From Saccharothrix sp. (GTDB taxonomy: Bacteria > Actinomycetota > Actinomycetes > Mycobacteriales > Pseudonocardiaceae), in NCBI RefSeq assembly GCF_031180885.1, contig NZ_JAPSLK010000007.1, positions 43,228-107,227 on the forward strand: a stretch of 64,000 nucleotides of DNA, read 5' to 3'. Below are positions 2,470 through 22,618 of this stretch, in pieces. Numbering within the stretch: position 1 is the stretch's first letter; every line of letters starts with the position of its first letter. The notes under the pieces are model-generated. The model searched no databases and had not been told where the DNA came from. It worked only from the letters and a program-made list of their open reading frames with translations. Made by a program: the position numbers and the translations under genes.

Positions 2470-3291
2470 TCACCTCGATTTGCGTGCCGCGACGATCACG
2501 TACCCGATCTGGTCCTTCCTCGGCAGGAAGAAGCCGCGGTGCATCCTGGTGAACCCGTCCAGCGCCGCCTCCCCGAACCGCGCGGAGAAGCGGTCGCGCA
2601 CGCGCATCGCCTCCCTGAGGAACTTCCCCTTCATCCCGAACACCCGCGGCCCGCACTGGGTGTACTCCTCCACCGCGAACCCGGCGGCGCGGGTGTGGTC
2701 GAGCCACTCCGACGTCGTGGGCAGTTCCTTCAGCTTCAGGCTGTCCATGAACTGCCGCACCCGATCGGTCTCGTCGGCGCGTTCGAGGCTGAAGTCCGAG
2801 AAGGACAAGCGACCGCCCGGCTTGAGCACCCGGTGGAACTCGCGCAACGCCGCGTCCACGTCCGGGGCGTTCTGCAGCGACTCCAGGGCGAGCACGGCAT
2901 CGAAGGTGTCGTCCGGGAACGGCAGGGCCATGTAGTCGCCGTACCGGACCTCGACGAGATCACCCGCGCCGGCCGCCCGGATCCGCTCCCCCGCCGCGTC
3001 GATCTCGGCCCGGCTGACCGTCACCCCGGTGACGCGCACGCCGTGGGCGCGGGCCACGTGTATCGCCGTCTCACCGGGACCGCACCCGGCGTCGAGCAGG
3101 TGCTGTCCCGTCCGCAAGCCCAGCGTGTCGGTCACCTTGGTGGTGATCCGCAACAGGGCGTCGACCAGGGACGCCCCGTCCTCGTCGTCGTACCAGTACC
3201 ACATGTGCAGCCGACCGTCGCGCAACGCGTCGCCGATGGCCGCGCCCTCGTCGTAGTGCCGGCCGATCTCGGCCGCGTGGTCGTCCACCAC
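2470..3291 (-). CDS. SAM-dependent small-molecule methyltransferase
   Basis: About 273 residues. SAM motif I is clear (HLLDAGCGPGETAIHVA), followed by VTVSRAEI, a conserved acidic post-I segment, and the LKPGGRLSFSD strand. The segment LHMWYWYDDEDGASLVDAL before motif I is typical of the UbiE-like methyltransferases of natural-product clusters, for example rifamycin Orf14-type O-methyltransferases. GTG at 3291 sits 4 bases after the stop of the upstream oxygenase gene, so the pair is very likely co-transcribed; GTG at 3288 is an alternative. Proposed role: O- or N-methylation of the cluster product. The substrate is not inferable. Confidence 0.8.
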   Translation of the reverse strand: MVDDHAAEIGRHYDEGAAIGDALRDGRLHMWYWYDDEDGASLVDALLRITTKVTDTLGLRTGQHLLDAGCGPGETAIHVARAHGVRVTGVTVSRAEIDAAGERIRAAGAGDLVEVRYGDYMALPFPDDTFDAVLALESLQNAPDVDAALREFHRVLKPGGRLSFSDFSLERADETDRVRQFMDSLKLKELPTTSEWLDHTRAAGFAVEEYTQCGPRVFGMKGKFLREAMRVRDRFSARFGEAALDGFTRMHRGFFLPRKDQIGYVIVAARKSR

Positions 3292-3295
3292 GCTC

Positions 3296-4477
3296 TCACA
3301 GGTAGACGGTGTTGGGGCCGAGGCCCGACAACACCCGCCCGTACAGCTCGAAGTTGGTGTTCGGGTGCAGGATCGCGTGCAGGTGCATGGCGTGCATGTC
3401 CCGCTCGACCCGCTGGATGGGTGCGTCGTGGTAGATCGACGAGCCACCGCTCGCGGTCTTCAGCAACTCGACCGCCTGCTTGGCGCGCAGCGCCCCCGCG
3501 CCGAGGCCGAGCCGGACGCGGGCGCGCTCCTCGACGGTCCACTGCTCGCCGGCGACGGACTTCCGGTCGACGATCTCGGCGTTCCGGTCCAGGTGGAACG
3601 CGGCCTCGTCGGCCAGGGTGCGGGCCTCGCCGAGTTGGAGGTGGGTGATCGGCGCCTCGCGCTGCTCCTCGTAGTCGGTGTAGGTGATCTTGCGTCCGGG
3701 CAGGCGTTCGAGGAACAAGCTGAGGGCCGCCTCGGCGAGCCCGATCGCGGGCGCGCCGACGGTCGCGCACGCGACCGGCATGAACGGGACGCGATGGGCC
3801 GGCGACGCCGCACCCACCTGCTTCGGGTGCACACCCGCGAGCACGGGCCCGAGTGGCAGCACCCGGTGGTCGGGGACGAACAGGTCGCGCGCGACGGTGG
3901 TCACGCTGCCGCTGGCGCGCAGACCCGTCGTGTGCCAGTCGTCGATCACCTCCACGTCCGGCATGGGTACCGCGAGCATGACCGGCTCGTGCGTGCCGTC
4001 CGGCCGTGCCACCACCGCGGCGTTGGTGTTCCAGTGGCTCTGCAACGCGCCCGAGTTGAAGCGCCACTGCCCGTTGACGACGACGCCTCCGTCGACCGGC
4101 ACGGCCATCGCCGTGGGGCTGATGATGCCGCCGATCCGGACATCCGGCGTGGAGAAGACCTCCTCCTGGGTCTCGTCGGGGAAGAAACCCATCATCCAGG
4201 TCCCCATCGCCCACACGGTCGCCACCCACGCGGCGGAGCCGTCGCCCTTGCCGAGCTCGGCGAGCACTGAATGGGTGGTTCGCGCGTCGGCGGCGTAGCC
4301 GCCGAACCGTTCGGGCAGGCGGAGCTTCAACACACCGGCGTCCGCCATGGCGTCGACGACCTCGTCGTGCAACCGGCGGTGTTCCTCTCCCCAGACGGCG
4401 TGCTCGCGCAACACGGGGATGATGTGCGCGGTGCGCTCGGCCAGCGCGGAAGGCGTGGGCATCTCGACGGTACTCAT
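3296..4477 (-). CDS. Acyl-CoA-dehydrogenase-fold flavin-dependent oxygenase
   Basis: A 393-residue protein of the acyl-CoA dehydrogenase fold. It has an N-terminal helical domain with LPERFGGYA and LAELGKGDGSAAWVA, a middle beta domain (VVVNGQWRFNSGALQS, then DDWHTTGLRASGS) and a C-terminal helical domain. WHTTGLRASGS and the lack of an acyl-CoA catalytic Glu signature place it with the two-component hydroxylases (HsaA, NcnH/ActVA-Orf5 type). These use reduced flavin from a separate reductase to hydroxylate phenols or amines. No flavin reductase is visible in the window. ATG at 4477 was chosen because GGGAG lies just upstream. It forms an operon with the downstream methyltransferase. Confidence 0.75.
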   Translation of the reverse strand: MSTVEMPTPSALAERTAHIIPVLREHAVWGEEHRRLHDEVVDAMADAGVLKLRLPERFGGYAADARTTHSVLAELGKGDGSAAWVATVWAMGTWMMGFFPDETQEEVFSTPDVRIGGIISPTAMAVPVDGGVVVNGQWRFNSGALQSHWNTNAAVVARPDGTHEPVMLAVPMPDVEVIDDWHTTGLRASGSVTTVARDLFVPDHRVLPLGPVLAGVHPKQVGAASPAHRVPFMPVACATVGAPAIGLAEAALSLFLERLPGRKITYTDYEEQREAPITHLQLGEARTLADEAAFHLDRNAEIVDRKSVAGEQWTVEERARVRLGLGAGALRAKQAVELLKTASGGSSIYHDAPIQRVERDMHAMHLHAILHPNTNFELYGRVLSGLGPNTVYL

Positions 4478-4636
4478 GCGTATCTCCCGCATCAAAGGGG
4501 CGATGACAAGGGGGCGGGTGCCCTTCCGTGTGGTCGGCTCGCGCCCCGTTCCGACGCTGCCGGCCTCGCTCGGAATACCGCTACTTCCTGATTGCTTTGG
4601 TCTTGACGAAGGGTCCCGATCGTCCACATCGGACGC

Positions 4637-5635
4637 TCAGTCCACGACCGCCGGAAGGTTGAAGGACTCGAACAGGTTCACGTCCAGGAAGGCGTACACG
4701 TGACTGATACCCGCGTCCGTGAGCGTGAGCACCTGGAGGAATGCGGCGTGGTAGCGGCCGTCGGGCTCCAGGGTGTAGGTGGCGAACGCGGGCTGGCCGT
4801 TGGCGTCGGCGCGCACCAACCGCGCCTGGCCGGGGCGCACGGAGCAGCGGTGCGTCAGGTGGTGTGCGATGTGCTCGCGCCCGAGGTACCACTCCAGCAG
4901 CGGCGGCATCTCCCACGCCGCGTCCTGGGTCAGCAGGTCCACAATGGCCGGCACGTTCTTCTGCTCCCAGGCCGCGACGTACTCGTCGAGCAGCCTGCGG
5001 TGGGCCGCCGTGGTCGGCTCCATGACGTCCCCGCTGCGCGGGCTCAACCGATCCAGGTGGGCGCGGGCTCGTTGCAGCATGCTGTTGACCGCGGCGGTCG
5101 TGGTACCCAACGCCGCGGCCGTGTCCGCGGCGGGCCACATCAGCACCTCGCGCAGGACGAGCACGGCCCGCTGGCGCGGCGTGAGGTGCTGCAACGTGGC
5201 GACGAAGGCCAGCCGAACCGTCTCACGCGCCGCCACCAGGACAGCGGGGTCGGCGCTGTCGGACTGCGGCGAGTCGTCCGGGAGCGGTTCCAGCCACGGC
5301 ACTTCCGGCCGTTCCACGACGTCCTCGCTCGGGTCGGAGTTCGGCCCGAGACCCATCGGCAGGGGCCGCCTGCTGCGGCCCTCCAGGGCGTTGAGGCAGG
5401 CGGAGGTGGCGATCCGGTACATCCAGGTGCGCACCGACGAGCGGTTCTCGAACCGGTCGAAGGCTCGCCACGCGCGCAGGTAGGTCTCCTGGACCAGGTC
5501 CTCGGCCTCGTGCGCCGAGCCGACCATCCGGTAGCAGAAGGCCAGTAGCTCCCGCCGCAGACCCTCCGCACCCCGCAGGAAGTCGGTCTCGCGCCGCTGG
5601 TCCACTGCCTCCGTCACGTCCCGCCCTTTCGCCAT
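4637..5635 (-). CDS. ECF sigma factor with SnoaL-like C-terminal domain (SigJ/SigG type)
   Basis: A 332-residue RNA polymerase sigma factor. Region 2 is at the N terminus (LLAFCYRMVGSAHEAEDLVQETYLRAWRAFDRF) and region 4 in the middle (LTPRQRAVLVLREVLMWPAADTAAALG). A SnoaL/NTF2-like C-terminal domain covers about residues 205-330 (RLLDEYVAAWEQKNVPAIVDLL). This fused architecture is that of the TIGR02960 group, in which the C-terminal domain often replaces an anti-sigma partner and may sense a ligand. The gene is divergent from the MFS exporter, with 116 bases between starts, and lies upstream of the oxygenase-methyltransferase pair. It is a plausible cluster-specific activator. ATG at 5635 fits the domain boundary. 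Confidence 0.85.
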   Translation of the reverse strand: MAKGRDVTEAVDQRRETDFLRGAEGLRRELLAFCYRMVGSAHEAEDLVQETYLRAWRAFDRFENRSSVRTWMYRIATSACLNALEGRSRRPLPMGLGPNSDPSEDVVERPEVPWLEPLPDDSPQSDSADPAVLVAARETVRLAFVATLQHLTPRQRAVLVLREVLMWPAADTAAALGTTTAAVNSMLQRARAHLDRLSPRSGDVMEPTTAAHRRLLDEYVAAWEQKNVPAIVDLLTQDAAWEMPPLLEWYLGREHIAHHLTHRCSVRPGQARLVRADANGQPAFATYTLEPDGRYHAAFLQVLTLTDAGISHVYAFLDVNLFESFNLPAVVD

Positions 5636-5638
5636 AGC

Positions 5639-5661
5639 CACTCGACTCGCCCGTTCGAGTG
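5639..5661. promoter_or_regulatory. Inverted repeat just upstream of the sigma factor start
   Basis: CACTCGA and TCGAGTG form a perfect 7-base inverted repeat separated by 9 bases, within 26 bases of the sigma-factor start and inside the divergent promoter region shared with the exporter. It may be an operator or a translation-control hairpin for the sigma gene. No regulator is assigned. Confidence 0.3.
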
Positions 5662-5751
5662 AATCGCGGCACTCGCGACCGTTGACCCGATGATTCCACC
5701 CTCCGTGACCGGTCTGCACGGGTAGAGCCGTATGAGGCGGAAGGATAGCCG

Positions 5752-7353
5752 ATGGAAGACCGGATCGGGACCGGAGCCGAGCCACTGGCGGGCCGCCGCG
5801 AGTGGATCGGGCTCGCGGTACTCGCACTCCCGACTTTGTTGCTGTCGCTGGACATCAGCGTGTTGTACCTCGCATTGCCGCACCTGAGCGCGCAACTGGG
5901 CGCCGACAGCGCGGAACAGCTGTGGATCATGGACATCTACACGTTCCTGCTCGCCGGCTTCCTCATCACAATGGGCACGCTCGGCGACCGCATCGGCCGC
6001 CGGAAGCTCCTGCTCATCGGCGCCGCGGTGTTCGGCCTGGCGTCGGTGGTGGCAGCGTTCTCGACCAGCACGGAGATGCTGATCGTCGCCCGTGCCCTGA
6101 TGGGCGTTTCCGGCGCGACGCTGATGCCGTCGACGCTCGCCCTGATCACGAACATGTTCGCCAACCCGAAACAGCGCGGCGCGGCGATCGGCGTGTGGGC
6201 CAGCTGCATGATGGTGGGCGCGGCGCTGGGCCCGGTGATCGGTGGCGTGATGCTCGAACTGTGGTGGTGGGGCTCGGTGTTCCTGATGGGCGTGCCCGTG
6301 ATGCTGCTGCTGCTCGCGACCGGCCCCGCCCTGCTGCCCGAGTACAAGGACGCCGCCGCCGGCCGGGTCGACCTGCTCAGCGTGCTGCTGTCGCTGGCCG
6401 CGATCCTGCCCGTCATCTACGGGTTGAAGGACGCGGCGAAGGACGGCATCGGCGTCACGGCGATCGTCACCGTGCTGGTCGGTCTGGCGTTCGCCGCGGT
6501 CTTCGCCGTGCGCCAGTTGCGTTTGGACAGTCCACTCCTGGACCTGCGGCTGTTCCGCGTCCGCGCGTTCAGCGCCGCGCTGTCCATCATCATCCTGGGC
6601 GGCATCCCGCTCGCGGGGATCTTCCTGCTCGCCAGCATCCACCTGCAGACGGTCAAGGACCTGCCGCCCACGCAGGCCGGCCTGTGGCTGGCCCCGGTCG
6701 GCCTGGTGATCGCCGTGGGCGCGAGCGTGGCGCCCGCCATCGCGCAGAAGGTGCGGCCCGCCTACGTCATCGCGGTCGGCTTCGTCGGCTCGGTCATCGG
6801 CTTCCTGCTGCTGACGCAGGCCGACAGCACCACGGCGACGGTGGTGATCCTCATCGCCATGCTCCTGGTCTACCTCGGCGTCGGGCCGTCGATGGCGCTG
6901 GGCGTCGACATGGTCGTGGGCTCCGCACCGCCCGAGAAGGCCGGCTCGGCGTCGGCGACCTCGGAGACCAGCACCGAGTTGGGCGTGGCGCTGGGCATCG
7001 CCCTGGTGGGCAGCCTCGGCACGGCCGTGTACCGCGAGGCGGTCGAGGTGCCGTCCGGCGTCACCGGGGACCAGGCGCAGCAGGCGAAGGACAGCATCAG
7101 CGGGGCGTCCGCCGTCGCGGACGACCTGCCCCCGGACGTCGGTGCCCAACTGCTGGGCAGCGCGCGCGACGCGTTCGACACGGCGCTCAACGCGGGAGCG
7201 GTGTTCGGCGCGGTCATGTTCGCCTTGTGCGCGCTGATCGCGATCACGCTGCTGCGGCACGTCCCCCCGAGTGGCGCGAGCCAGACGGAGGAAGCCCCGG
7301 AGGGCGATCGGGCGACCGAGCCCGGCCTCACCCCGCTCGAATCGCGAGAATAA
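5752..7353 (+). CDS. DHA2-family (14-TM) MFS drug exporter
   Basis: A 533-residue major facilitator protein with about 14 predicted membrane segments. Motif A of the family is visible as GTLGDRIGRRKLLLIG, the DHA2 motif D1 as LDISVLYLALPHL in helix 1, and motif C as GAALGPVIGG in helix 5. Best matches by motif are the LfrA/QacA/SmvA group of cation and antibiotic exporters. It is transcribed divergently from the ECF sigma factor and towards the biosynthetic genes, so it probably exports the cluster product or gives self-resistance. ATG at 5752 follows GGAAGGA. A strong terminator follows the stop, so it is probably a monocistronic unit. Confidence 0.85.
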   Translation: MEDRIGTGAEPLAGRREWIGLAVLALPTLLLSLDISVLYLALPHLSAQLGADSAEQLWIMDIYTFLLAGFLITMGTLGDRIGRRKLLLIGAAVFGLASVVAAFSTSTEMLIVARALMGVSGATLMPSTLALITNMFANPKQRGAAIGVWASCMMVGAALGPVIGGVMLELWWWGSVFLMGVPVMLLLLATGPALLPEYKDAAAGRVDLLSVLLSLAAILPVIYGLKDAAKDGIGVTAIVTVLVGLAFAAVFAVRQLRLDSPLLDLRLFRVRAFSAALSIIILGGIPLAGIFLLASIHLQTVKDLPPTQAGLWLAPVGLVIAVGASVAPAIAQKVRPAYVIAVGFVGSVIGFLLLTQADSTTATVVILIAMLLVYLGVGPSMALGVDMVVGSAPPEKAGSASATSETSTELGVALGIALVGSLGTAVYREAVEVPSGVTGDQAQQAKDSISGASAVADDLPPDVGAQLLGSARDAFDTALNAGAVFGAVMFALCALIAITLLRHVPPSGASQTEEAPEGDRATEPGLTPLESRE

Positions 7354-7382
7354 CCCACGATATTCCCCGCCAGTTAGCCAAC

Positions 7383-7421
7383 GGCCCGCAGGAACCATTC
7401 GGTCCTGCGGGCCACTCTTTT
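7383..7421 (+). terminator. Rho-independent terminator after the MFS exporter
   Basis: GGCCCGCAGGA (7383-7393) and TCCTGCGGGCC (7403-7413) form a perfect 11-base stem with a 9-base loop, followed by CTCTTTT. This separates the exporter transcript from the FAD monooxygenase that follows. Confidence 0.85.
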
Positions 7422-7619
7422 GCCCGCTTTCCGCGACATCGGGAAGCCGGCTAATCGACCAGCGCATCCTGGAAGATGCGTCGAGGCCACCTCACCTGGC
7501 ATCGTCGAATTGCACGCCACCACAGTCGACCTGCCGGCTCCGCGCGCATCTTCTCCCGCACGCGGGCGATGCCCGGCGCGGTCCGCGGCCTTTCCAGACG
7601 ATTCCAGGAGTGCGCCACG

Positions 7620-8993
7620 ATGCGAAAACATGTCGGAGATCGCGCCGTCGTGCTCGGTGGCGGCATGGGCGGCCTGCTCGCCACCAGAGTGCTCACCGAG
7701 TTCTTCGCCGAGGTCGTGCTGGTCGACCGGGACCGGCTGGTCGGGGTGACGAGCGCTCGGCGCGGTGTGCCCCAGGGCAGGCACGCCCACGGCCTGGTCG
7801 CCCGCGGCCACCAGATCCTGGAGTCGCTGTTCCCCGGCCTCACCGACCAGTTGATCGGCGCGGGCATCGAGCCCGGTGACCTCAACGGCGACATCCGGTG
7901 GTACTTCAACGGCGTGCGCCTGCGCCCGGTGCGCACGGGCCTGCTCTCCATCCCCGCCACCCGCCCGGTGCTGGAGCACCACGTCCGGCTGCGGGTGCTC
8001 GACTTGCCCAACGTCCGGCTCCTGGAGGAGCACGACATCGCGGGTCTGGCCACGACGCCGGACCACCGCCGGGTCACCGGCGTCGTGCTGCGCGCCGAGG
8101 GCGGGCGGGAGGTCGAACTGGACGCCGACCTCGTCCTCGACACCAGCGGACGCGGCTCGCGCACCCCGGTGTGGCTGGAACAGCTCGGCTACCGGCCGCC
8201 CGAGCAGGACCGGGTGAAGATCGACCTCGCCTACACCACCCAGCACTTCCGGATCCCGCACGACCCGCTCGGCCGGGACGTGGCGATCATCCCGGCGGCC
8301 ACGCCCGCCAACCCCCGCGGCGCGTTCTTCTACCGGTTGCCCGGCGGCGACGGCCGCATCGAGCTGTCCCTGACCGGAATGCTCGGCGACCACCCGCCGG
8401 TCGACCAGGACGGATTCCTCGAATACACCCGTTCGCTGCCCGTCAACACCATATACGACGCCGTCCGGCGCGGTGAGCCGATCGACGACCCGGTACAGTT
8501 CAAATTTCCCGCGAGCGTGCGTCGCAAATACGAGAAGCTGGATCGGTTCCCCCAGCGGCTCCTCGTCGCGGCTGACGCCGTGTGCAGTTTCAACCCGCTT
8601 TACGCGCAAGGCATGACAGTCGCGGCACTGGGCGCGCTGACCCTGCGCCGCCACCTTTCCCGCGGCACCGTGCCGGAACCGCTGGAATTCTTCCGCGACA
8701 TCGCGCGCGACGTCGACATGCCGTGGCAGTTCTCCGCCACCGCCGACCTCGGCTACGCCGGCGTCGAGGGCACCCGGACGCTGCGGACCCGGGTGGTGAA
8801 CGCCTACCTGCCGCGCCTGCAGGCAGCCGCCGCGCACGACGCCGCGCTGAGCACCGCCTTCATCCGCACCGCGGGTTTGGTGGACCCGCCGGCGCGCCTG
8901 CTGCGGCCCGGCACCGTCGCCCGCGTCCTCTGGCACTCGCGCCGCGGGTCGGCCACCGCCCCCGCCCCCGCGCAGACCGGCGTGCACCACTGA
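7620..8993 (+). CDS. FAD-dependent monooxygenase/oxidoreductase (UbiH-like)
   Basis: A 457-residue flavoprotein. The Rossmann dinucleotide motif is at the N terminus ([17 protein letters not shown], about residues 9-25), followed by [10 protein letters not shown] later segment, [23 protein letters not shown], replaces the usual GDAAH motif of group A flavin monooxygenases with ADAVCSFNP. This variant is seen in the tryptophan-halogenase/geranylgeranyl-reductase-like branch of the superfamily. No halogenase WxWxIP motif is seen. ATG at 7620 follows AGGAG and fits the Rossmann fold. It is the first gene of the main plus-strand biosynthetic run and ends 25 bases before the epoxide hydrolase-carrier gene, suggesting co-transcription. 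Likely role: oxidation of a cluster intermediate, possibly epoxidation upstream of the hydrolase (inference). Confidence 0.75.
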
Positions 8994-9018
8994 CCCCACG
9001 GCCCACTTGGAGGACATC

Positions 9019-10443
9019 ATGCGCCCGTTCCGCATTGACATCCCGCAGGCCGACCTGGACGACCTGCACCGGCGGCTGGCGGCCACCCGGTGGCCCGACG
9101 AGTTGCGCGGCCAGGGGTGGAGCCGCGGCGTACCGGTGGGGCACCTCCGGGACCTCGTCGAGCACTGGCGCACCCGGTTCCGGTGGCGCGAGGTCGAGGC
9201 GCGGCTGAACCTCCTGCCCCAGTTCACCACCGAGATCGACGGGACGCTCATCCACTTCCTGCACGTCCGCTCCCTCGAGCCCGACGCGGTACCGCTGGTG
9301 CTCACGCACGGTTGGCCCAGCTCCTTCCTGGAGTTCCTGGACGTGATCGGGCCGCTGACCGACCCGGCGGCGCACGGCGGCGACCCCGCCGACGCCTTCC
9401 ACCTCGTGATCCCGTCCCTGCCCGGCTACGCGTTCTCCGACCCGCCGGCCGAACCCGGGTGGGACACGGTGCGGGTCGCCCGGGCGTGGGCGGAGCTGAT
9501 GCGGCGGCTGGGCTACGACCGCTACGTGGCGCAGGGCGGCGACTGGGGTTCGGCGATCTCGCTGCACCTGGGCCTGGTCGACCCGGACCACGTCGCGGCG
9601 GTGCACACCAGCATGCTCGTCACCTTCCCGCCCGAGGACCCCGAACTGCTGGCCTCGCTCGACGAGGCCGACCGGCGGCGGCTGGCGTTCGCGGCGGCGT
9701 TCGAACAGGACGGCGCCGGCTGGCGGCTGCTCCAGTCGACCCGCCCGCAGACCCCGGCCTACGCGCTGACCGACTCCCCCGCCGGGCAGCTCGCCTGGAT
9801 GGCGGAGAAGTTCGTCGAGTGGAGCGACCCGGCGGCGGGCCTGCCCGACGGGATCGACCGGGACCTGCTGCTGGCCACCGCCTCGATCTACTGGCTGACC
9901 GCCAGCGCCTGGTCCAGCGCGCAGATCTACTACGAGTCCAACCGCACCCGCGAAGCGTTCCTGCGCACATGGGGCGGTCCGTGGCCGCTGCGCATGCCCG
10001 TCGGCGTCGCGGCGTTCCCCGCGGACGTCGTGCGGCCGATCCGCGCGTTCGCCGAACGGATCCTCCCCACGCTGGAGCACTGGAGCGAGTTCGAGCGCGG
10101 CGGCCACTTCCCCGCGCTGGAGCAGCCCGTGTCGTTCGTCGACGACCTGCGGCGCTTCGTCCGCCGCCACCGCGCGCCGCGCCCGCTCGACCGCGCCGCG
10201 CCGGGCGGCACCGTCGCCGCGCGGGTGGCCGAGATCTGGCGGGAGGTGCTGGGTGTCACGGAAGAACAGGACGGCCAGACCTTCTTCGACCTGGACGGCC
10301 AGTCGATCTCGGCGGTGCGGATCACCGCGCTGATCAAAGACCGGCTCGGGATCGAGGTCGACATAGCCGACCTGTTCGAGGACCCGGACCTCGCCGGCTT
10401 CGTGCGGCTGGTCACCGCTCGGTCCACCAGGCCTGCCGCGTGA
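9019..10443 (+). CDS. Epoxide hydrolase fused to a C-terminal carrier protein domain
   Basis: A 474-residue fusion. Residues 1-105 are an epoxide-hydrolase N-terminal (EHN) domain. Residues about 90-380 are an alpha/beta hydrolase with HGWP (97-100, oxyanion loop), nucleophile Asp175 in QGGDWGSA, the lid Tyr pair in YYESNR, and catalytic His363 in RGGHFPALE. Residues about 396-466 are a peptidyl/acyl carrier domain whose phosphopantetheine Ser429 lies in [10 protein letters not shown]; the usual GGHS is altered to DGQS. Stand-alone epoxide hydrolases of this family (SgcF, NcsF2) open enediyne-core epoxides to diols. A cis carrier is unusual. ATG at 9019 is preceded by GGAGG. The stop overlaps the NRPS start by 4 bases, so the two are translationally coupled. 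Confidence 0.9.
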
Positions 10444-13400: not shown

Positions 13401-13583
13401 TCGCTGCTGCTGCCCCGCGTGACCCAACGGATCCGCGAACGGTGTGGCGTGCGGCTGCACCCGCGCGACCTCCTGGCGCATCCGGTGCTGGCCGACCTGG
13501 CCGCCCTGGTCGAGCGGCTCGCGCCGCTCGGGAGCAACGACACCGACGACAACGACGGGGTGAGGAACCTTGACCACTCTTGA
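10440..13583 (+). CDS. Single-module NRPS, C(degenerate)-A-PCP
   Basis: 1047 residues. A condensation-type domain covers about residues 10-420. Its HHxxxDG motif reads HGAVADR (144-150), so the catalytic second His is Gly and the Gly is Arg. The adenylation domain covers about 440-930: A3 [13 protein letters not shown]4 YDASLGE, A5 [10 protein letters not shown]7 YRTGDLA, A8 [15 protein letters not shown] and A10 [11 protein letters not shown] with the catalytic Lys. The carrier domain has Ser988 in FFRLGGHS. There is no thioesterase or epimerase. A hand-read binding-pocket code is D-A-G-T-L-A-L-L-A-K; I cannot assign a substrate from it, but context suggests beta-tyrosine. GTG at 10440 overlaps the preceding stop (GTGA). 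The 3' end overlaps the aminomutase gene by 14 bases. Confidence 0.9.
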
Positions 13584-15183
13584 GCAGGCAACACCGGTCA
13601 ACTTCGACGGCGGCACCGTGCGCACCTCCGACGTGCGAGCGGTGGCCGAACGCCGGGCGCGCTGCGAGGTCGGCACCGAGGTGTTGGCCAAGACAGCCAA
13701 GTCGCGGAAGCTGTTCGAGGACATCGTCGGCGAGGGCGTGCCGGTGTACGGCGTGACGACCGGCTACGGCGAGATGATCTACATGCAGGTGGGCATCGCG
13801 AACGAGGTCGAACTGCAGACGAACCTGGTCCGCAGCCACAGCGCGGGCGTGGGCCCGCTGTTCTCCGACGAGGAGGCCAGGGCGATCGTCGCGGCCCGGC
13901 TCAACGCGCTCGCGAAGGGCTACTCGGCCGTGCGGCCGGAGATCCTGGAACGCCTGGCCCTCTACCTGAACCTGGGCCTGACGCCCGCGATCCCGGAGAT
14001 CGGGTCGCTGGGCGCCAGCGGCGACCTGGCCCCGCTCTCGCACATCGCCGTCACGCTCATCGGCGAGGGCTACCTGCTGCGCGACGGCGTCCGCGTGCCG
14101 ACCGGCGACGTGTTGCGCCACCACGGGATCGAGCCGTTGACGCTGCGGTTCAAGGAAGGCCTCGCGCTGATCAACGGCACCTCCGCGATGACCGGCCTGG
14201 GCTGCCTGGTGGTCGAGCGCGCGCTCGACCAGGTCCGGCAGGCGGAGATCATCACCGGTCTCGTCCTGGAGGCGCTGCGCGGCTCGACCAGCCCGTTCAT
14301 GCCGGAAGGGCACGACGTGGCCCGGCCGCACCAGGGCCAGATCGACACCGCCGCGAACATGCGCGCGCTGCTGAACGACAGCCTGCTGGCGATGCGGCAC
14401 GAGGACCTGCGGGCGATGGCCGAGAAGCAGGCGGGCAAGCTGACCGGCGACCAGGTCGCGCGCACGGACGTCTACTTGCAGAAGGCGTACACCCTGCGGG
14501 CGATCCCCCAGGTCGTCGGCGCCGTGCGCGACGCGCTGCGCCACGCGCACGAGAAGTTGTCGGTGGAGCTCAACTCCGCCAACGACAACCCGCTGTTCTT
14601 CGAAGGCCACGAGGTGTTCCACGGCGCCAACTTCCACGGGCAGCCGATCGCCTTCGCGATGGACTACACCACGATCGCGCTCACCCAGCTCGGCGTGTTC
14701 TCCGAGCGCCGGACCAACCGGCTGCTCAACCGGCACCTCAGCGACGGCCTGCCGGAGTTCCTGGTGGCCGGCGACCCCGGTCTCAACAGCGGCTTCGCCG
14801 GCGCCCAGTACCCGGGCACCGCGCTGGTCGCGGAGAACCGGACGATCGGGCCCGCCAGCACGCAGAGCGTGCCGTCCAACGGGGACAACCAGGACGTCGT
14901 CAGCATGGGCCTCATCGCCGCCCGCAACGCGCGCCGCGTGCTGACCAACAACAACCACATCCTGGCCGTGGAGCTGCTCGCCGCCGCCCAGGCGGTGGAC
15001 CTCTCCGGCCGGCAGGCGGGCCTGGGCCCGGCCGGGCGCGCCGCGTACGACCTCGTCCGGTCGCTGGTGCCCACGCTCGACCGCGACCGCTACATGAGCG
15101 ACGAGCTCGAACTGGTCTCGGACGCGCTGGCCTCCGGACGGCTGCTCGAGGCCGTGCGGGCGGCGGGCGTCGAGCTGCGGTGA
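13570..15183 (+). CDS. MIO-dependent tyrosine 2,3-aminomutase (SgcC4-type)
   Basis: A 537-residue member of the aromatic amino acid ammonia-lyase/aminomutase family. The MIO cofactor would form from Ala149-Ser150-Gly151 in GSLGASGDLAPLSH. The catalytic Tyr is Tyr60 in VYGVTTGYGEM, and His90 in NLVRSHSAGVG is the residue linked to recognition of the tyrosine phenol. Long stretches (IYGVTTGYGEMIYMQV-like, ELNSANDNPLFFEG, RTIGPASTQSVPSNGDNQD) match what I recall of SgcC4 from the C-1027 cluster, which makes (S)-beta-tyrosine. The start is TTG at 13570: an in-frame stop lies just upstream, GAGG is correctly placed, and the SgcC4 N terminus aligns there. It overlaps the NRPS end by 14 bases. A plain tyrosine ammonia-lyase (coumarate-forming) activity is the main alternative. 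Confidence 0.88.
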   Translation: MTTLEQATPVNFDGGTVRTSDVRAVAERRARCEVGTEVLAKTAKSRKLFEDIVGEGVPVYGVTTGYGEMIYMQVGIANEVELQTNLVRSHSAGVGPLFSDEEARAIVAARLNALAKGYSAVRPEILERLALYLNLGLTPAIPEIGSLGASGDLAPLSHIAVTLIGEGYLLRDGVRVPTGDVLRHHGIEPLTLRFKEGLALINGTSAMTGLGCLVVERALDQVRQAEIITGLVLEALRGSTSPFMPEGHDVARPHQGQIDTAANMRALLNDSLLAMRHEDLRAMAEKQAGKLTGDQVARTDVYLQKAYTLRAIPQVVGAVRDALRHAHEKLSVELNSANDNPLFFEGHEVFHGANFHGQPIAFAMDYTTIALTQLGVFSERRTNRLLNRHLSDGLPEFLVAGDPGLNSGFAGAQYPGTALVAENRTIGPASTQSVPSNGDNQDVVSMGLIAARNARRVLTNNNHILAVELLAAAQAVDLSGRQAGLGPAGRAAYDLVRSLVPTLDRDRYMSDELELVSDALASGRLLEAVRAAGVELR

Positions 15184-15194
15184 GGACGCCACCG

Positions 15195-16565
15195 ATGACG
15201 ACCGCCGGAGCACCACCCAGCACAGGGGAACTGGTCCTCCACCCCCTGTCGCTGCAACAGGAGTTCCTGTGCCTGTTCGACCGGGGCGACGAGGCCGGAC
15301 CGTTCGGGCCGCGCTACCACGTCGTGGACGGGTGGCGGCTGACCGGGCACGTGGACGTGCCCGCGTTGCGCGCGGCGCTGGCCGACGTGGTGGAGCGGCA
15401 CGAGTCGCTGCGCACCGAGGTGGTCCGCGGCGACGGCGCCCGCGGCCAGGTGGTCCACCCGCCGAGCGAGCCGGTGCTGACCACGCACGACCTGCCGGGA
15501 GTCCCGGCGGAGCAGCGCGCCCACCGGGCCGAGGAGTTCATGAACGACATCGAGGCCGGTGTGTTCGAGCTGGGCCGCAGGCCGTTGCTGCGCGCGGCTC
15601 TCGGGCGCTTCGACGACCAGGACGCCGTGCTGGTGCTGAACTCCCACCACGCGGCGGTGGACGCCTGGTCGATGCAGGTGATCATGCGGGACGTGGCCGT
15701 GTTCTACGCGAGACGAACCGGCCACGCCGTCGCGGACCTGCCGCCGGTGGAGCAGTACCGCGAGCACGCCGTGCGCCAGCGGACGAGCGCCGACACCCCG
15801 GAGGTCCGCGCGCGGCGCGCGTACTGGGGCCGCAAGCTGGCCGGCGCGGAACTGCTCACGGTGGCCGTCGACCGGAAGCCCGATCCGCACGAGCGACCGG
15901 TCACCTCGTGGCGGCGCTTCGCCTACGACGCCGCCACCCGCGCCGCCGTGGAGCGCACGGCGCGCACCCACCGGGCGACGCCGTTCATGGTGCTGACCGC
16001 GGCGTTCGCCGTGCACTGCCTGCGCACGACCGGGGTGGCCGACGTGGTCGTGCCGACCTTCACGCCCGGCCGCGAGGACGCGCGGACCCATGATTCGGTC
16101 GGGTCCTACTTCAACTTCGTCCCGCTGCGGGTGGACCTGCGCGACTGCGCGTCGTTCTCGGACGCGCTCGCGCGGGCCCGCACCACCTGCCTGGAGAGCT
16201 ACGCCAACGAACTCCCGCTGAGCCTGGTCCTGGGCGAGGCCCCGGGTCTGATGGCGTCCACGGCGCGCGAGGGCCAGGTGCCGTTCGTGTTCCAGGTGGT
16301 GCAGTCGCCGTTCACGATGGAACGCGAGCGCGTCGGCGGCCTGGAGTACACGTCCATCTGGGACCGCAGGATGTCCCAGGAGATCGGATCGGAGGCCCCC
16401 GACGGGATGATCTGGTCGTTCCACTTCGGACCGTCCGACGACATCGCGGGCCTGCTCGGGTACAGCAGGCACCTGTTCACCGAGGCCACCGTGACCCGCG
16501 CCATCACCGGGTTCGGTGCCGCGCTGGAGGAGCTGTCGACCAGGCCGGACACCCCGGTTCGCTGA
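15195..16565 (+). CDS. Free-standing NRPS condensation enzyme (SgcC5-like)
   Basis: A 456-residue stand-alone condensation-fold protein with an intact active site: His151-His152-x3-Asp156-Ala157 in NSHHAAVDAWS (HHxxxDA instead of HHxxxDG). YFNFVPLRVD matches the later floor motif. SgcC5 and its relatives are discrete condensation enzymes that join a carrier-bound beta-amino acid to an alcohol or amine of a second substrate. Here the enzyme follows the aminomutase by 11 bases, and the NRPS next door has a broken C domain and no thioesterase, so this enzyme is the likely bond-forming and chain-releasing step. ATG at 15195 (GAGG upstream) is preferred to the GTG at 15180, which would overlap the previous stop. 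Confidence 0.85.
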   Translation: MTTAGAPPSTGELVLHPLSLQQEFLCLFDRGDEAGPFGPRYHVVDGWRLTGHVDVPALRAALADVVERHESLRTEVVRGDGARGQVVHPPSEPVLTTHDLPGVPAEQRAHRAEEFMNDIEAGVFELGRRPLLRAALGRFDDQDAVLVLNSHHAAVDAWSMQVIMRDVAVFYARRTGHAVADLPPVEQYREHAVRQRTSADTPEVRARRAYWGRKLAGAELLTVAVDRKPDPHERPVTSWRRFAYDAATRAAVERTARTHRATPFMVLTAAFAVHCLRTTGVADVVVPTFTPGREDARTHDSVGSYFNFVPLRVDLRDCASFSDALARARTTCLESYANELPLSLVLGEAPGLMASTAREGQVPFVFQVVQSPFTMERERVGGLEYTSIWDRRMSQEIGSEAPDGMIWSFHFGPSDDIAGLLGYSRHLFTEATVTRAITGFGAALEELSTRPDTPVR

Positions 16566-16616
16566 CACCCCAACGACAACCCGCACGCCCACACCGCTCA
16601 CCGTCGGAGGCACACC

Positions 16617-18038
16617 ATGCGTCGACTCCGCGCGCTCGCGGTCGCGTCACTGGCGATCGCGACCACGCTCACCGGGTCCACCCAGGTCACCGCGGACACC
16701 CGGGACAAGATCACCATCAACGTCTGGCTCAACGACTACCCGATCCCCGGTTACCTGGCCGCCCGGGTCAAGGCCGCCGAGGACTTCAACCGGCTCTACC
16801 CGCGCTACCACGTCAACGTCGTGCCCTACGACTACACCAAGCTGCCCGCAGACCTTTCGAAGGCGGCGAAGGAGGGCAAGCACCCGACGATCGCGAACTA
16901 CTACTCCAACGCCGTCCAGGTGGCGCTGGACACCGGGGACCGGCGCGGGAAGCCGCTGTTCAAGTCCGTCGAGAAGGCCATCGGCAAGCGCGACCACGTA
17001 CTGGGGCAGCAGAACGTCCTGCCCGACCTCGTTCCCGCCTACCGGTCCTACTACACCCGTCGCGGCGACCTCACGTCCATGCCCACGACCGCCATGACGA
17101 GCCTGCTGTTCGCCAACACGACGGTCCTGGCGGCGGCCGGCATCACCGAGGTGCCGCGCACCTGGGCCGCGCTGGAGGCCGCCTGCGACGCCATCGCGAA
17201 GCTGCCCGACGGGCCGCCGCACTGCGCGACCTGGGCCAACCACAACTGGTTCCCGCAGCAGGCGGTGCTGCAACAGGACGCGCCGCTGGCCAACCACGGC
17301 AACGGCAGGTTCGGCCGGGCCACCCGGGTCGACCTCGACTCGGCCGCCCTGCGCTCGTACGTGAGCTGGCTCGACGGCCTGCACGACAAGGGCCACTTCC
17401 TCTACACCACCAACGCCGACCAGACCTGGGAAGGCGTCTTCCAGGCCTTCGGCTCGCAGCAGGTCGCGTTCGCGCTCAGTTCGGCCAACACCGCCGGGCT
17501 GTTCGCCTCGATGGGGCAGCAGGGCGGGTTCCAGACCGCCGCCGGCCGGATGCCGTACAACGACGCCGTACCCCTGTCGGGCAACCTGGTCACCGGCGAC
17601 TCGCTGTGGCTGGCCGACGGCCTCGACAAGGCCACCGAGGACGGCGCGCTGGCGTTCATGCTGTTCCTCAACAACCCCGACAACGCCGTGGCGTGGCACA
17701 AGAGCAACCACTACCTGCCCATGACGCGCACCGCGGTGCGGCGGCTGGAAGCGGAGGGGTGGTTCACGGCCAACCCGGCCGACCGCATCGCGATCGACCA
17801 GGTGAACGCGAACACCGGGACACCCGCCGCGCTCGGGCCCGTCCTCGGTGACTTCCACGGTGTGCAGACCGCCCTGACCTCCGCCGTGCACGACGTGCTC
17901 GTCGGCGGCGCCGACCCGGCGACCAGGTTGCGGCAGGCCGACCACGAGGCCCAACGGCACCTGTCGACCTACAACGCCTGGTGCGCCTCGGGGGGCCAGC
18001 GCCACGCGAACTGCTTCCGCATCTACCCGCTGGGCTGA
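16617..18038 (+). CDS. Secreted extracellular solute-binding protein (family 1, UgpB-like)
   Basis: A 473-residue protein with a Sec-type signal peptide (RR, a hydrophobic stretch at residues 6-20, cleavage near ADT). There is no lipobox Cys. The mature part has the family 1 solute-binding layout: ITINVWLNDYPIPGY at the N terminus, LTSMPTTAMTSLLFANTTVLAAAG (the UgpB-like PFNSSTPVLYYN region) and AFMLFLNNPDNAVAWHKSNHYLPM near the hinge. Such proteins normally feed sugars or glycerol phosphodiesters to ABC importers, but no permease or ATPase is nearby. It sits between the condensation enzyme and the multicopper oxidase, with its own GGAGG ribosome site. Possible roles are extracellular binding of the product or a borrowed scaffold. 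It is not an obvious biosynthetic enzyme. Confidence 0.8.
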   Translation: MRRLRALAVASLAIATTLTGSTQVTADTRDKITINVWLNDYPIPGYLAARVKAAEDFNRLYPRYHVNVVPYDYTKLPADLSKAAKEGKHPTIANYYSNAVQVALDTGDRRGKPLFKSVEKAIGKRDHVLGQQNVLPDLVPAYRSYYTRRGDLTSMPTTAMTSLLFANTTVLAAAGITEVPRTWAALEAACDAIAKLPDGPPHCATWANHNWFPQQAVLQQDAPLANHGNGRFGRATRVDLDSAALRSYVSWLDGLHDKGHFLYTTNADQTWEGVFQAFGSQQVAFALSSANTAGLFASMGQQGGFQTAAGRMPYNDAVPLSGNLVTGDSLWLADGLDKATEDGALAFMLFLNNPDNAVAWHKSNHYLPMTRTAVRRLEAEGWFTANPADRIAIDQVNANTGTPAALGPVLGDFHGVQTALTSAVHDVLVGGADPATRLRQADHEAQRHLSTYNAWCASGGQRHANCFRIYPLG

Positions 18039-18044
18039 CGGTCG

Positions 18045-18084
18045 CGGGCGCGGCCGACCGCCGGACCGGGCTCGGCCGCGCCCG
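18045..18084 (+). terminator. Strong GC hairpin between solute-binding protein and multicopper oxidase genes
   Basis: GGGCGCGGCCGA (18046-18057) and TCGGCCGCGCCC (18072-18083) form a perfect 12-base stem, extended by one C-G pair, with a 14-base loop. No T-run follows. It could attenuate or end transcription inside the operon, or protect an upstream mRNA end. Confidence 0.5.
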
Positions 18085-18108
18085 TCGCCACACCGAAGTG
18101 GAGGGCAC

Positions 18109-19557
18109 ATGTTGAACCGACGAGCGCTGCTCGGCGCGGGCGGCGTGACCGGCGCCGGCGCACTGCTGACGATGATCGCCCGCATGGACGGCGCGAGCGC
18201 CCGTCCCGCGCACCACCACGGCACCGCGCCGGCGTCCGGTCCTCCGCTGCGCACGGAACCGTTCGCGGTGCGGATGCCCGTGCCCGAGGTGCTGCGCCCC
18301 AAGCGCTCGAACCACGGCGGTGACCTGTACGAGCTCGACATCCGCCCGGCGGAGGTGGAGATCGTGCCCGGCCTGCGCACGCCCGTGCTGACCTACGGCG
18401 GCACGTTCGTCGGCCCCACGATCCGCGCGCGGCGGGGACGACACGCGCTCGTGCGCTTCCGCAACACGATGGGCGCGGACGCCAACGTGCACCTGCACGG
18501 CGGTCACGTGCCGCCGCACAGCGACGGCTACCCCACCGACGTCATCCCGCACGGCGGGCAGCGGGTGTACCACTACCCGAACTCGCAGCAAGGCGCGACG
18601 CTGTGGTACCACGACCACACCCACCACCGCGAGGCCGAGCACGTCTACCGGGGTCTGCACGGGTTCTACCTGCTGGAGGACGAGGACGAGCGCGCGCTGC
18701 GCCTGCCCGGCGGCCCCTACGACGTGCCGGTGATGCTGTCCGACGCGCACCTGGACGCGTCCGGGGCGCTGGTGTGGAACCCGTTCGGCGGCTGGTTCGA
18801 GCGCACCACGCTGCTGGCCAACGGGCGGCCCCAGCCGTACTTCCCGGTCGAGGCGCGCCGCTACCGGTTCCGGCTGCTCAACGCCGCCACCCACCGGCAC
18901 TTCCGGCTCGACCTCGACGGGGAGCAGATGGTGCAGATCGCGTCCGACGGCGGGCTGCTGCCGCGGCCGGTCGCGCTCACCGAGCTGGTCCTCTCCCCCG
19001 GCGAACGCGCCGAGGTGATCGTCGACTTCGGCCGCCACCGCCCCGGCACGCGACTGGTGCTGTCCGACGTCTCCGGGCCGGTGCTGCGGTTCGACGTCGA
19101 GCGGCACGCGCGCGACGACAGCCGCGTCCCCGACGAGCTGCGGCCCGCGCCCGCCCCGCTGCGCTCGTCGGTGGAACGGCACCTGGTCCTGAGCACCGAC
19201 CTGGCCGAGGTCCGGTCGCTGATCAACGGCCGGGTCTTCGACGCCGACCGGGTCGACTTCCGGATCCGGCACGGCGCCACGGAGACGTGGCGGATCTCCA
19301 ACGCCGACACCGATCCGGTCGCGGGCCACGTCGACCACAACTTCCACATCCACCTCGTCCAGTTCCGCGTGCTCGACCGCGACGGTCGGCCACCGCGGCC
19401 CGGTGAGGAGGGCTGGAAGGACACCGTCGTCGTGCCGCCCGGCGAGTCGGTGCGCGTCCAGGCGACGTTCCGCGGCTACCGCGGCCGGTACGTCCACCAC
19501 TGCCACATCCTCGAACACTCGCAGTTCGGGATGATGGGCCAGTTCGAGGTCGTGTGA
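18109..19557 (+). CDS. Secreted multicopper oxidase (CotA/phenoxazinone-synthase type)
   Basis: 482 residues. The N terminus [14 protein letters not shown] is a likely twin-arginine signal. All four copper-binding motifs are present in order: HLHGGH (trinuclear), [14 protein letters not shown], and [14 protein letters not shown], which carries the type 1 Cys with Met as axial ligand. The three-cupredoxin size and the DGYP/HGGQ spacing resemble the CotA, bilirubin-oxidase and phenoxazinone-synthase group. These enzymes oxidise phenols, o-aminophenols and catechols with oxygen. Next to a hydroxylase that would create a catechol, it may carry out oxidative coupling or quinone formation of the product after export (inference). 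It is followed after 8 bases by the hydroxylase gene. Confidence 0.87.
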
Positions 19558-19565
19558 GGACTGCG

Positions 19566-21122
<1,557 letters not shown>

Positions 21123-21160
21123 GCGGCACGCGCGCCAACGGCCGCTGAAAGGGGTGGACG

Positions 21161-21832
21161 ATGTCCCGACCGACAACGCACGAGCCGACCACGCATCCTC
21201 CCCGCCGACCACGCGCGCCGTGGCGAAGGCCGTGGGTCGTGCCACTGGCGCTGGTGCTGCTGGGTTTCCTGGTCTATTCGCTGCCGCCGTACTCGACCCT
21301 GGACCCCGCCACCGCGCGAACCGTGCTCAACGAGGGTTTCGCCGCGCACTACCCGTTGCTGGTCCTCCACATCGCCACCGGCACGATCGCGATGCTCACC
21401 GTCGTGCTTCAAGTGTGGCCGTGGCTGCGCGCCCGACATCCGCGCGTGCACCGCGTCAGCGGACGGCTGTACGTCTTCGCAGGCGTGCTGCCCAGCGCGG
21501 TGATCGCCCTGGTGATACTGCCCTACACCGCGGTGCTGCCCGGCGCCGTGGGAGCGGCGGTGACCGCCGTGCTGTGGCTGGTCACCACCGCCGCGGGGTT
21601 CGTGCGCGCCAGACAACGCCGCTTCGCCGAGCACCGCCGGTGGATGATCTACAGCTTCGCGCTGACCGCCAGCATCGTGTGGGGCCGCGTCATCGGGATC
21701 GGGCTGGGCGGCGTGCTCGGGGGCATGGGCCTCGACCTGGTGGTGGTCGCCGAGATGGCGGGCTGGATGGGCACTGTGATCAACCTCGTGCTGGCGCAGT
21801 GGTGGTTGGCCCGCACGTCGCGGGCCGACTAG
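21161..21832 (+). CDS. DUF2306 membrane protein
   Basis: A 223-residue protein. A basic, Pro/His-rich cytoplasmic N terminus (about 30 residues) is followed by about six transmembrane helices. AAHYPLLVLHIATGTIAMLTVVLQ and the conserved HRVSGRLYVFAGVLPSA and HRRWMIYSFALTASIVWGR match DUF2306, whose paired His residues suggest heme or metal binding. The family is uncharacterised but often near oxidases and exporters. It is the last gene of the plus-strand cluster run, 38 bases after the hydroxylase, with AAAGGGG upstream of the ATG. Its function in the cluster is unknown. Confidence 0.75.
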   Translation: MSRPTTHEPTTHPPRRPRAPWRRPWVVPLALVLLGFLVYSLPPYSTLDPATARTVLNEGFAAHYPLLVLHIATGTIAMLTVVLQVWPWLRARHPRVHRVSGRLYVFAGVLPSAVIALVILPYTAVLPGAVGAAVTAVLWLVTTAAGFVRARQRRFAEHRRWMIYSFALTASIVWGRVIGIGLGGVLGGMGLDLVVVAEMAGWMGTVINLVLAQWWLARTSRAD

Positions 21833-22147
21833 GTCGGCAAGTCCCAGTGGGTGCGGTATCGGTCGGGCGGCGCGTCACCACGACGTCGCCCGGCCGAGCC
21901 ATGCGATCGCACCGAGCAGGTGGCCACCCGCCAACCTCGACGCCGACCGGGCACGGAGTACGGCCACCGCGTCCGGCGACCACACCCCGCGCCCGGCCCG
22001 GCTCGATCTGGAACAGCGCGGTGACCGCACCATCGAGGGCGTCGCCGCGCGGCACCTGCTCGCCGTGACCAACGCCACCCGGGACAAGCAGGCCACCGGC
22101 CGATCCGTCACCCGATCACCGATCGCCTACCTGCACTGATCAGGATC
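21833..22147. other. Region without a recognisable gene
   Basis: On the plus strand a frame ending near 22140 has a protein-like tail (RLDLEQRGDRTIEGVAARH, then LLAVTNATRDKQATG) with no start or ribosome site and no family I recognise. It may be the remnant of a decayed gene. Nothing else is supported. Confidence 0.4.
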
Positions 22148-22618
22148 TCACCGACGTGGTTCGGCGGGGCTGTTCTGATAGGCGGCGAGCAGCCACCGTC
22201 CGTCCCGCTTGACCACCACCCACGAGGCATGCACCGCTCGTTCCGGGGAGGGCTTCGTCTCGCCGGGGGCGAGCACACCACCCGACGTGATCACCACTCC
22301 CCAGTCCGGGGCGAAGAAGCGCACGTGGATCGGTTCGCCGGTCACCCTGGTGCCGCGGTAGGCGCCGGCGAACGCGTCCTGCATGAAGGAGGAAATCTCA
22401 CCCCTACCCTTCTTGAACACACCGGGGAGAATCATCGTACCATTATCGGTGAACACCTCGGAAAAGGCGACGTGGTCATGCTTTTCCCACGCCGCCACAA
22501 CTCGATTCATAACTGCTGCGACGGCACTCTGATCGCCCGCCGACAAGGCGACACCAACATCGACTGCCACTATCCCGACCTTTCTGGAGGAAGCGTCCAT
22601 CGGAGTGCCCGGAATCAT
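22148..22618 (-). CDS. SgcJ/EcaC-family SnoaL-like protein
   Basis: About 156 residues of the NTF2/SnoaL-like fold. The pattern VVAAWEKHDHVAFSEVFTDNGTMILPG, then GRGEISSFMQDAFAGAYRGTRV and a terminal RDGRWLLAAYQNSP, is that of the SgcJ/EcaC family (TIGR02246), named after SgcJ of the C-1027 enediyne cluster. SgcJ-type proteins assist enediyne-core processing in those clusters; elsewhere the role is obscure. Three ATGs (22624, 22618, 22600) are possible. 22618 was chosen because GGA lies 9 bases upstream. It is convergent with the DUF2306 gene across the gap and marks the right edge of the cluster. It supports a link to enediyne-type tailoring although no enediyne PKS is present. Confidence 0.8.
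   Translation of the reverse strand: MIPGTPMDASSRKVGIVAVDVGVALSAGDQSAVAAVMNRVVAAWEKHDHVAFSEVFTDNGTMILPGVFKKGRGEISSFMQDAFAGAYRGTRVTGEPIHVRFFAPDWGVVITSGGVLAPGETKPSPERAVHASWVVVKRDGRWLLAAYQNSPAEPRR

Follow-up and report, generated by a model that had tools for sequence, protein, structure and literature searches.

The 64-kb window analysed here (the whole stretch of DNA, positions 43228–107227 of contig C95 in G000, a draft Saccharothrix genome of 9.46 Mb in 125 contigs) carries at 2470–22618 a compact group of biosynthetic genes that most likely forms the peripheral half, making the arm and tailoring the core, of a C-1027-like nine-membered enediyne pathway, with the core half encoded on another contig, C73. 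Enediynes are natural products that cut DNA. A preliminary description of the window had rightly read these genes as the beta-tyrosine and tailoring set of a C-1027-like pathway lacking a polyketide synthase (PKS) of its own; it also knew of no described cluster with such a set. The set is, however, not a new kind of cluster but a peripheral enediyne half parted from its core, an arrangement that recurs in the family. The locus is unusual in its place, in how far it is parted from the core genes and in the fusion of an epoxide hydrolase (EH) with a peptidyl carrier protein (PCP) domain. The names SgcC, SgcC1, SgcC2, SgcC4, SgcC5, SgcF, NcsF2 and UnbU for proteins and PDB entries, as well as the E9/E10 numbers, are used as we presume them to apply, while SgcD, SgcE6, SgcG and SgcJ follow the wording of the C-1027 sequence record.

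Complementary gene sets in the window and on C73

The reference for the comparison was plasmid SGLP1 of Streptomyces globisporus C-1027 (NZ_CP013739.1, two stretches). Thirty-two modules, 17 from the window and 15 from C73 (two open reading frames, ORFs, were cut into domains), were compared with 51 selected annotated C-1027 genes, a selection without hypothetical genes or the plasmid genes lying outside the cluster. Reciprocal best hits were obtained for eleven window modules and for eleven C73 genes, and the C-1027 genes hit by the two sets are different ones. In the window these are the tyrosine 2,3-aminomutase (TAM; 74%, WQO_RS33875), the HpaB/SgcC-type hydroxylase (73%, WQO_RS33845), the EH (64%), an epoxidase-like enzyme (57%, WQO_RS33815), an HsaA-like monooxygenase (57%, WQO_RS33900), the SgcJ-type protein (57% over 113 aa, WQO_RS33855), the PCP fused to the EH (52%), an exporter of the major facilitator superfamily (MFS; 51%, WQO_RS33830), the adenylation (A) domain of a nonribosomal peptide synthetase (NRPS; 50%, WQO_RS33880), the SgcC5-type condensation enzyme (44%, WQO_RS33865) and a solute-binding protein (43%, plasmid gene at 20093–21469). 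On C73 they are E10 (79%), a GMC oxidoreductase (77%), UnbU (70%), a P450 (64%), DUF5987 (62%), two DUF1702 proteins (59% and 58%), UnbV (58%), PksE (55%), E6 (54%) and an AhpD-like protein (46%). The NRPS's own PCP gave a weak reciprocal match (36%) that lies outside the count of 11, and the degenerate condensation (C) domain of the NRPS, the C73 SnoaL protein and the C73 MFS protein were not reciprocal. No match among the 51 genes was obtained for the window methyltransferase, sigma factor, multicopper oxidase and membrane protein or for two C73 genes. With eleven modules so matched, the supposed novelty of the set finds no support, these four window genes apart. Conversely, 26 of the 51 C-1027 genes matched nothing, including the halogenase, chromoprotein, sugar and benzoxazolinate genes.

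The preliminary description had placed the acceptor of the beta-tyrosine unit either elsewhere in the genome or outside enediyne chemistry, and had proposed a genome search for an enediyne PKS. The former option is supported by an enediyne PKS cassette on C73, and the latter finds no support. The ketosynthase (KS) search of G000 returned 30 matches, one of which is a divergent KS encoded on C73 in a frame of 1960 codons; further KS candidates lie on C27, C70 and C124. At E ≤ 1e-150 G000 has one PksE, the one on C73. Pfam recognizes KS, acyltransferase (AT), ketoreductase and dehydratase domains in the 1907-aa PksE ORF, and does not see the acyl carrier protein and phosphopantetheinyl transferase parts. 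Around PksE are the two DUF1702 genes, UnbV/ASPIC, the P450, the GMC oxidoreductase with DUF5987, a thioesterase and a flavin reductase, as well as SnoaL and MFS genes belonging to C73 itself. By the set thresholds there are no scored peripheral genes at C73 and no scored core genes at the window locus, so that core and peripheral genes, which might be expected in one cluster, are divided between C73 and C95. The absence of a PKS from the locus likewise holds for the 20 window proteins scanned with Pfam (part of the ORFs of the 64 kb), none of which contains a KS or AT domain. The division would extend to the hydroxylation step, with the HpaB-type oxygenase in the window and an SgcE6-like flavin reductase, its putative partner, on C73. 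Adjoining the core cassette is a large multi-gene NRPS cluster (C73:2568–29776; L081, L082).

Both C73 DUF1702 paralogs have a DUF1702 gene of C-1027 as reciprocal best hit, and we take them to be E2/E3. The assignment to the nine-membered class is based on the similarity to C-1027 together with these two genes; one published study treats the E2 gene as a mark of a nine- rather than a ten-membered core (PMC5181780).

Comparison with a Saccharothrix relative, G232, adds a second kind of complementarity. Its PksE is 95–97% identical and C73:30015–66630 is collinear with G232:C1:167.6–213.9 kb, most blocks being 84–92% identical and those flanking a gap 76 and 79%. The gap, at C73:34.94–35.90 kb, holds a single SnoaL gene in G000 and about 7 kb in G232, comprising an epoxidase-like FAD enzyme, a GMC oxidoreductase, an epoxide hydrolase and a class-III aminotransferase. 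Because this block is absent at C73, two activities have no gene at the G000 core locus, which has neither epoxidase nor EH, and both are encoded at the window locus. G232, in contrast, has epoxidase and EH at its core and no TAM or SgcC5-like match. In G292 the two genes likewise lie beside the core, and an SgcC5-like match was also absent there. The window epoxidase and EH are only 54% and 66% identical to the G232 copies and are thus counterparts rather than the G232 block moved. The EH search of G000 gave five matches: besides those in the window and on C48 (59%), three are at ≤50%. The C48 gene was rejected as an enediyne EH, its 91%-identical G232 homolog lying far from the G232 PksE and its own neighbours including no labelled enediyne gene.

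Distribution of SgcC5-like genes and PksE across the family

Related PksE genes without TAM or SgcC5 are common in the genus, occurring in many Saccharothrix genomes, so that the C73 core can exist without an arm and its presence in G000 alone proves little. Because of this, the weight of the case rests on a family-wide test, on the C-1027 mapping and on the block missing relative to G232. The test covered 297 genomes of the family (TAM, E ≤ 1e-200; KS, E ≤ 1e-100; SgcC5-like, E ≤ 1e-75; close PksE, ≥75% identity). SgcC5 was chosen as the marker because EH, which at E ≤ 1e-80 occurs in 21 of the 25 genomes of the genus, is too widespread; TAM alone was also set aside, some TAM loci having no SgcC5, HpaB or epoxidase.

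TAM was found in 24 genomes, KS in 114 (a close PksE in 71 of them) and an SgcC5-like gene in 41. The occurrence of SgcC5-like genes depends on that of PksE: a close PksE is present in 39/41 SgcC5-bearing genomes versus 71/297 overall (Fisher p 1e-26, kinship ignored). The two exceptions are G027, with a PksE at 66%, and G011 (74% complete), with none. As a check on the marker, all 29 records of a plasmid collection with an SgcC5-like gene, many of them closely related to one another, also have PksE. In 28 genomes PksE and an SgcC5-like gene share a contig at a spacing of no more than 72 kb (in G066 and G115 a further SgcC5-like copy is on a different contig), and in 12 of the 41 the two are unlinked. 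Six of the unlinked cases are on single contigs (by contig coordinates, G205, G054, G190, G268 and G085 at 1.9 to 6.4 Mb and G099 at 269 kb) and six on different contigs (G000, G009, G031, G143, G228 and G287), where the minimum spacing is estimated as at least 100 kb for G009, G031, G143 and G287; the estimate drops to ~82 kb in G228 and to ~68 kb in G000. PksE is present in 12/12 unlinked genomes versus 44/269 of all those lacking a linked SgcC5 (p ~1e-9, with G011 counted as a failure and kinship again ignored). At the distant locus, two or more additional peripheral genes are present in 10 of these 12. A smaller TAM-based test, superseded by the SgcC5 test, found PksE in 7/7 unlinked SgcC5-bearing TAM genomes versus 2/6 of those whose TAM loci are all of the other kind (Fisher p 0.02). 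G205 has an enediyne apoprotein gene 4 kb away from its SgcC5-like gene and 3 Mb away from its PksE, which ties a distant locus of this kind to enediynes.

The same data bear on an alternative in which the window produces a beta-tyrosine compound of its own on an acceptor that is not an enediyne, such as an ester or amide of NRPS origin oxidized by the multicopper oxidase, with the C73 PksE serving another compound. The window's own NRPS, exporter and oxidases, the lack of C-1027 counterparts for the multicopper oxidase and the methyltransferase, and the many relatives with PksE but no arm would suit it, as would the TAM loci elsewhere without SgcC5, HpaB or epoxidase (where a genome has no TAM loci but these, a close PksE occurs in two cases out of six). 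We nevertheless consider it unlikely, given the degenerate NRPS C domain, the co-occurrence of SgcC5-like genes with PksE in both the family and the plasmid collection, and a window epoxidase and EH that match C-1027 genes and are absent at C73.

Since G000 is a draft genome and its contigs by themselves do not establish a large distance between the two loci, one may ask whether core and periphery form one contiguous cluster in the living genome, the C73/C95 split being an assembly matter (neighbours with a ~55-kb insertion or break). With 9.6 kb between PksE and one C73 end and 58 kb between the SgcC5-like gene and one C95 end, the coordinates permit a spacing of ~68 kb, inside the range of linked relatives. 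Such a contiguous cluster is nonetheless very improbable: C95 3.2–43.2 kb has no obvious enediyne genes (by gene calling rather than Pfam) and this left 40 kb, the part examined, matches nothing in G232:140–240 kb, the region right of the G232 core included, while the same division is seen within single contigs of six relatives, at contig-coordinate distances of 0.27 to 6.4 Mb. The functional reading would stand even if the two were contiguous. That the window genes are a relic left by partial loss of an enediyne cluster and not working with C73 would suit the missing apoprotein gene, the lack of sugar and benzoxazolinate genes among the G000 genes compared, and differing core and arm trees, and is scarcely credible in view of intact reading frames and conserved motifs, the same division in six genus labels and a C73 core without its own epoxidase/EH block.

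Several observations weigh against a window and a C73 core that act together and far apart. The survey p-values ignore kinship (the unlinked genomes bear six genus labels) and the thresholds were chosen after looking at the data. In G268 and G143 the distant locus consists of the condensation gene only, HpaB and HsaA being at the core, and the G009 arm locus has an E6-like gene. The apoprotein (chromoprotein) family PF00960 has no match in G000, nor in G054, G190 and G228, and in G009 the apoprotein gene is ~480 kb from the SgcC5-like gene; since PF00960 is without a match in 6 of the 14 genomes scanned besides G000, this gene is evidently not always kept. The ~68 kb that the contig ends of G000 permit and the many PksE-bearing Saccharothrix genomes without an arm belong here too.

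Gene content of the window locus and predicted chemistry

The genes named in the preliminary description were found at or near the positions it gave, on the basis of gene calling, Pfam and NCBIfam family scans and PDB-chain comparisons; it had overlooked the carrier domain on the EH, the degenerate C domain of the NRPS, the sigma factor–SnoaL protein and the solute-binding protein. On the minus strand, an S-adenosylmethionine methyltransferase at 2470–3291 (ORF from 3447, start uncertain; Methyltransf_11, E 1.7e-23) has homologs of 57–65% at the arm loci of some relatives. It is followed by the HsaA-like flavin-dependent monooxygenase of acyl-CoA dehydrogenase fold (3296–4627, family scans) and by an extracytoplasmic function (ECF) sigma factor with a SnoaL-like C-terminal domain (4637–5827, Pfam). 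The latter might, at a guess, regulate the locus; a presumed ECF41-type promoter motif had no matches in the window, L049 or L050. All further genes up to the SgcJ-type protein are on the plus strand, beginning with the MFS exporter (5752–7353, family scans) and the FAD epoxidase-like enzyme (7476–8993, start maybe 7665), whose top PDB matches are the polyether epoxidases Lsd18/LasC (168 bits) and MonCI (160 bits). This enzyme and the HsaA-like protein account for the 'two other flavin oxygenases' of the preliminary description.

The EH–PCP fusion (9007–10443, likely ATG at 9019) is a single open frame identified by Pfam, PDB and C-1027 comparisons, with the EH reaching to about residue 390 and the PCP at about 400–470 (motif FFDLDGQS; PF00550, E 1.6e-13). 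The EH part consists of EHN and alpha/beta-hydrolase domains (5f4z, 510 bits; 4i19, 446 bits; next chain, 217). With a PCP attached, the protein departs from the single-domain build of SgcF/NcsF2-type enzymes. Among the gene calls compared the fusion was seen once, in the window only: EH matches listed for 24 other genus genomes end by query residue 410, and the best 12 of 492 plasmid-collection records cover the hydrolase part only.

The NRPS (10449–13583) has the order C–A–PCP (PCP motif FFRLGGHS). Its C domain reads HGAVAD, without the second His of HHxxxDG, and this degeneracy makes for a poor peptide synthetase. The relatives share it, 24 of 35 other NRPS rows showing H-x-x-x-A-D, ten not matching the pattern used and one, from the C73 NRPS cluster, retaining HHxxxDG (a few loci are counted twice). 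A dead C domain ahead of a beta-tyrosine A domain seems to have been kept on purpose. The A-domain pocket region comes in two types, PEHDP...LMGEA...IAATW at C-1027-type loci and PGYDA...LAGEA...ILATW in the window, which may perhaps read different beta-amino acids.

The TAM (13618–15183) scores 932.7 bits against TIGR03832 (cut-off 501) and 802 bits against the solved tyrosine aminomutase 2qve/2ohy, and its methylideneimidazolone (MIO) triad Ala-Ser-Gly at 133–135 is invariant across 19 aligned sequences. Several TAM loci (L070, L119, L120, L123, L142, L185, and L187–L190 and L192 of Cupriavidus/Ralstonia) have no SgcC5, HpaB or epoxidase gene nearby in the sequence examined and seemingly belong to other beta-tyrosine pathways. 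The free-standing SgcC5-type condensation enzyme (15195–16565, motif HHAAVD) matches 4znm, which we take to be an SgcC5 relative, at 393 bits, with the next PDB chain at 127. The extracellular solute-binding protein (16617–18038, Pfam) and the secreted-looking multicopper oxidase (18109–19557, family scans), with a twin-arginine-like N-terminus by eye, are both met repeatedly at enediyne arm loci, the oxidase at some of those outside the window. The HpaB/SgcC-type hydroxylase (19566–21122; 4oo2, 868 bits) precedes a DUF2306 membrane protein of uncertain membership (21239–21832, Pfam); a longer ORF in another frame, 21154–22068, had no Pfam matches. The SgcJ/SnoaL-type protein (22148–22618, minus strand; TIGR02246, 126 bits) lies in an ORF extending to 22930, with the domain confined to the last 125 residues. 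Just past the locus, at 23204–27295 of the window, is a large CHAT–NACHT/STAND–TPR protein, possibly of defence type.

From these gene contents, and supposing functional coupling between the window and C73, we infer the following scheme. The aminomutase would form beta-tyrosine, which the A domain would load onto a carrier domain, and the HpaB hydroxylase with the C73 flavin reductase would yield a beta-DOPA-type unit (no halogenase was present among the genes compared). On the core made by the C73 enzymes, epoxidase and EH would generate a diol, which the SgcC5-type enzyme would esterify with the carrier-bound beta-amino acid, and the EH–PCP fusion may bring the acyl donor close to the fresh diol.

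Possible modular inheritance and comparison with known systems

In a PksE tree of 16 proteins, seven split genomes fall in several places (G000 with G232; G228 with G190; G205 with G054; G009; G099), and a TAM tree of 11 rows differs from it, G205 and G054 being sisters for PksE and not for TAM. Both trees are small, with several weak forks; the mismatch would fit separate inheritance or exchange of arm modules. An empty-site comparison of the window locus with both flanks gave patchy matches and no clean empty site. On balance, we lean towards a general picture in which the enediyne pathway of this family is commonly made up of two chromosomal modules, each with its own place and its own inheritance: a core, and an arm-and-tailoring module that can be exchanged. 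One core could then combine in trans with various arms, and in G000 the arm module would also have taken over the epoxidase and EH steps, with the EH fused to the arm carrier.

An enediyne cluster has been reported in Saccharothrix espanaensis (PMC3469384), and enediyne mining often reads the PksE neighbourhood, as in the neighbourhood network of PMC5181780. No description of an enediyne pathway split over two loci was found among the listed titles and abstract beginnings from searches of the open-access literature, which is no proof of absence. Because 12 of the 41 SgcC5-bearing genomes carry the gene away from PksE, PksE-neighbourhood mining would misjudge their products, and a locus like that of the window would end up classed as an orphan NRPS cluster. 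Should the two halves work together, natural core/arm exchange in enediynes becomes testable.

Compared with C-1027, where everything is on one plasmid within ~70 kb and EH and PCP are separate genes, G000 has its genes on two contigs and the two proteins fused, and the C-1027 halogenase, chromoprotein, sugar and benzoxazolinate genes are unmatched in the G000 genes compared. The loci of Streptomyces verrucosisporus (L113), Streptomyces sp. CNQ085 (L114) and Sphaerisporangium melleum (L134) lie in one place and share with the window the order epoxidase – NRPS/A domain – TAM – SgcC5-like; L113 and L114, unlike the window, have a GMC core gene within 10 kb. In L134 a carrier domain of the same type is fused to the condensation enzyme in a 566-aa ORF, whereas in the window it is fused to the EH. 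The closest parallels in layout are the two-place loci of G009, G031, G054, G085, G099, G190, G205, G228 and G287, known from sequence alone, in which, as in G000, the core cassette lies apart from the SgcC5-like and other peripheral genes; they differ from the window in having no EH–PCP fusion, TAM in part only, and another gene order and content.

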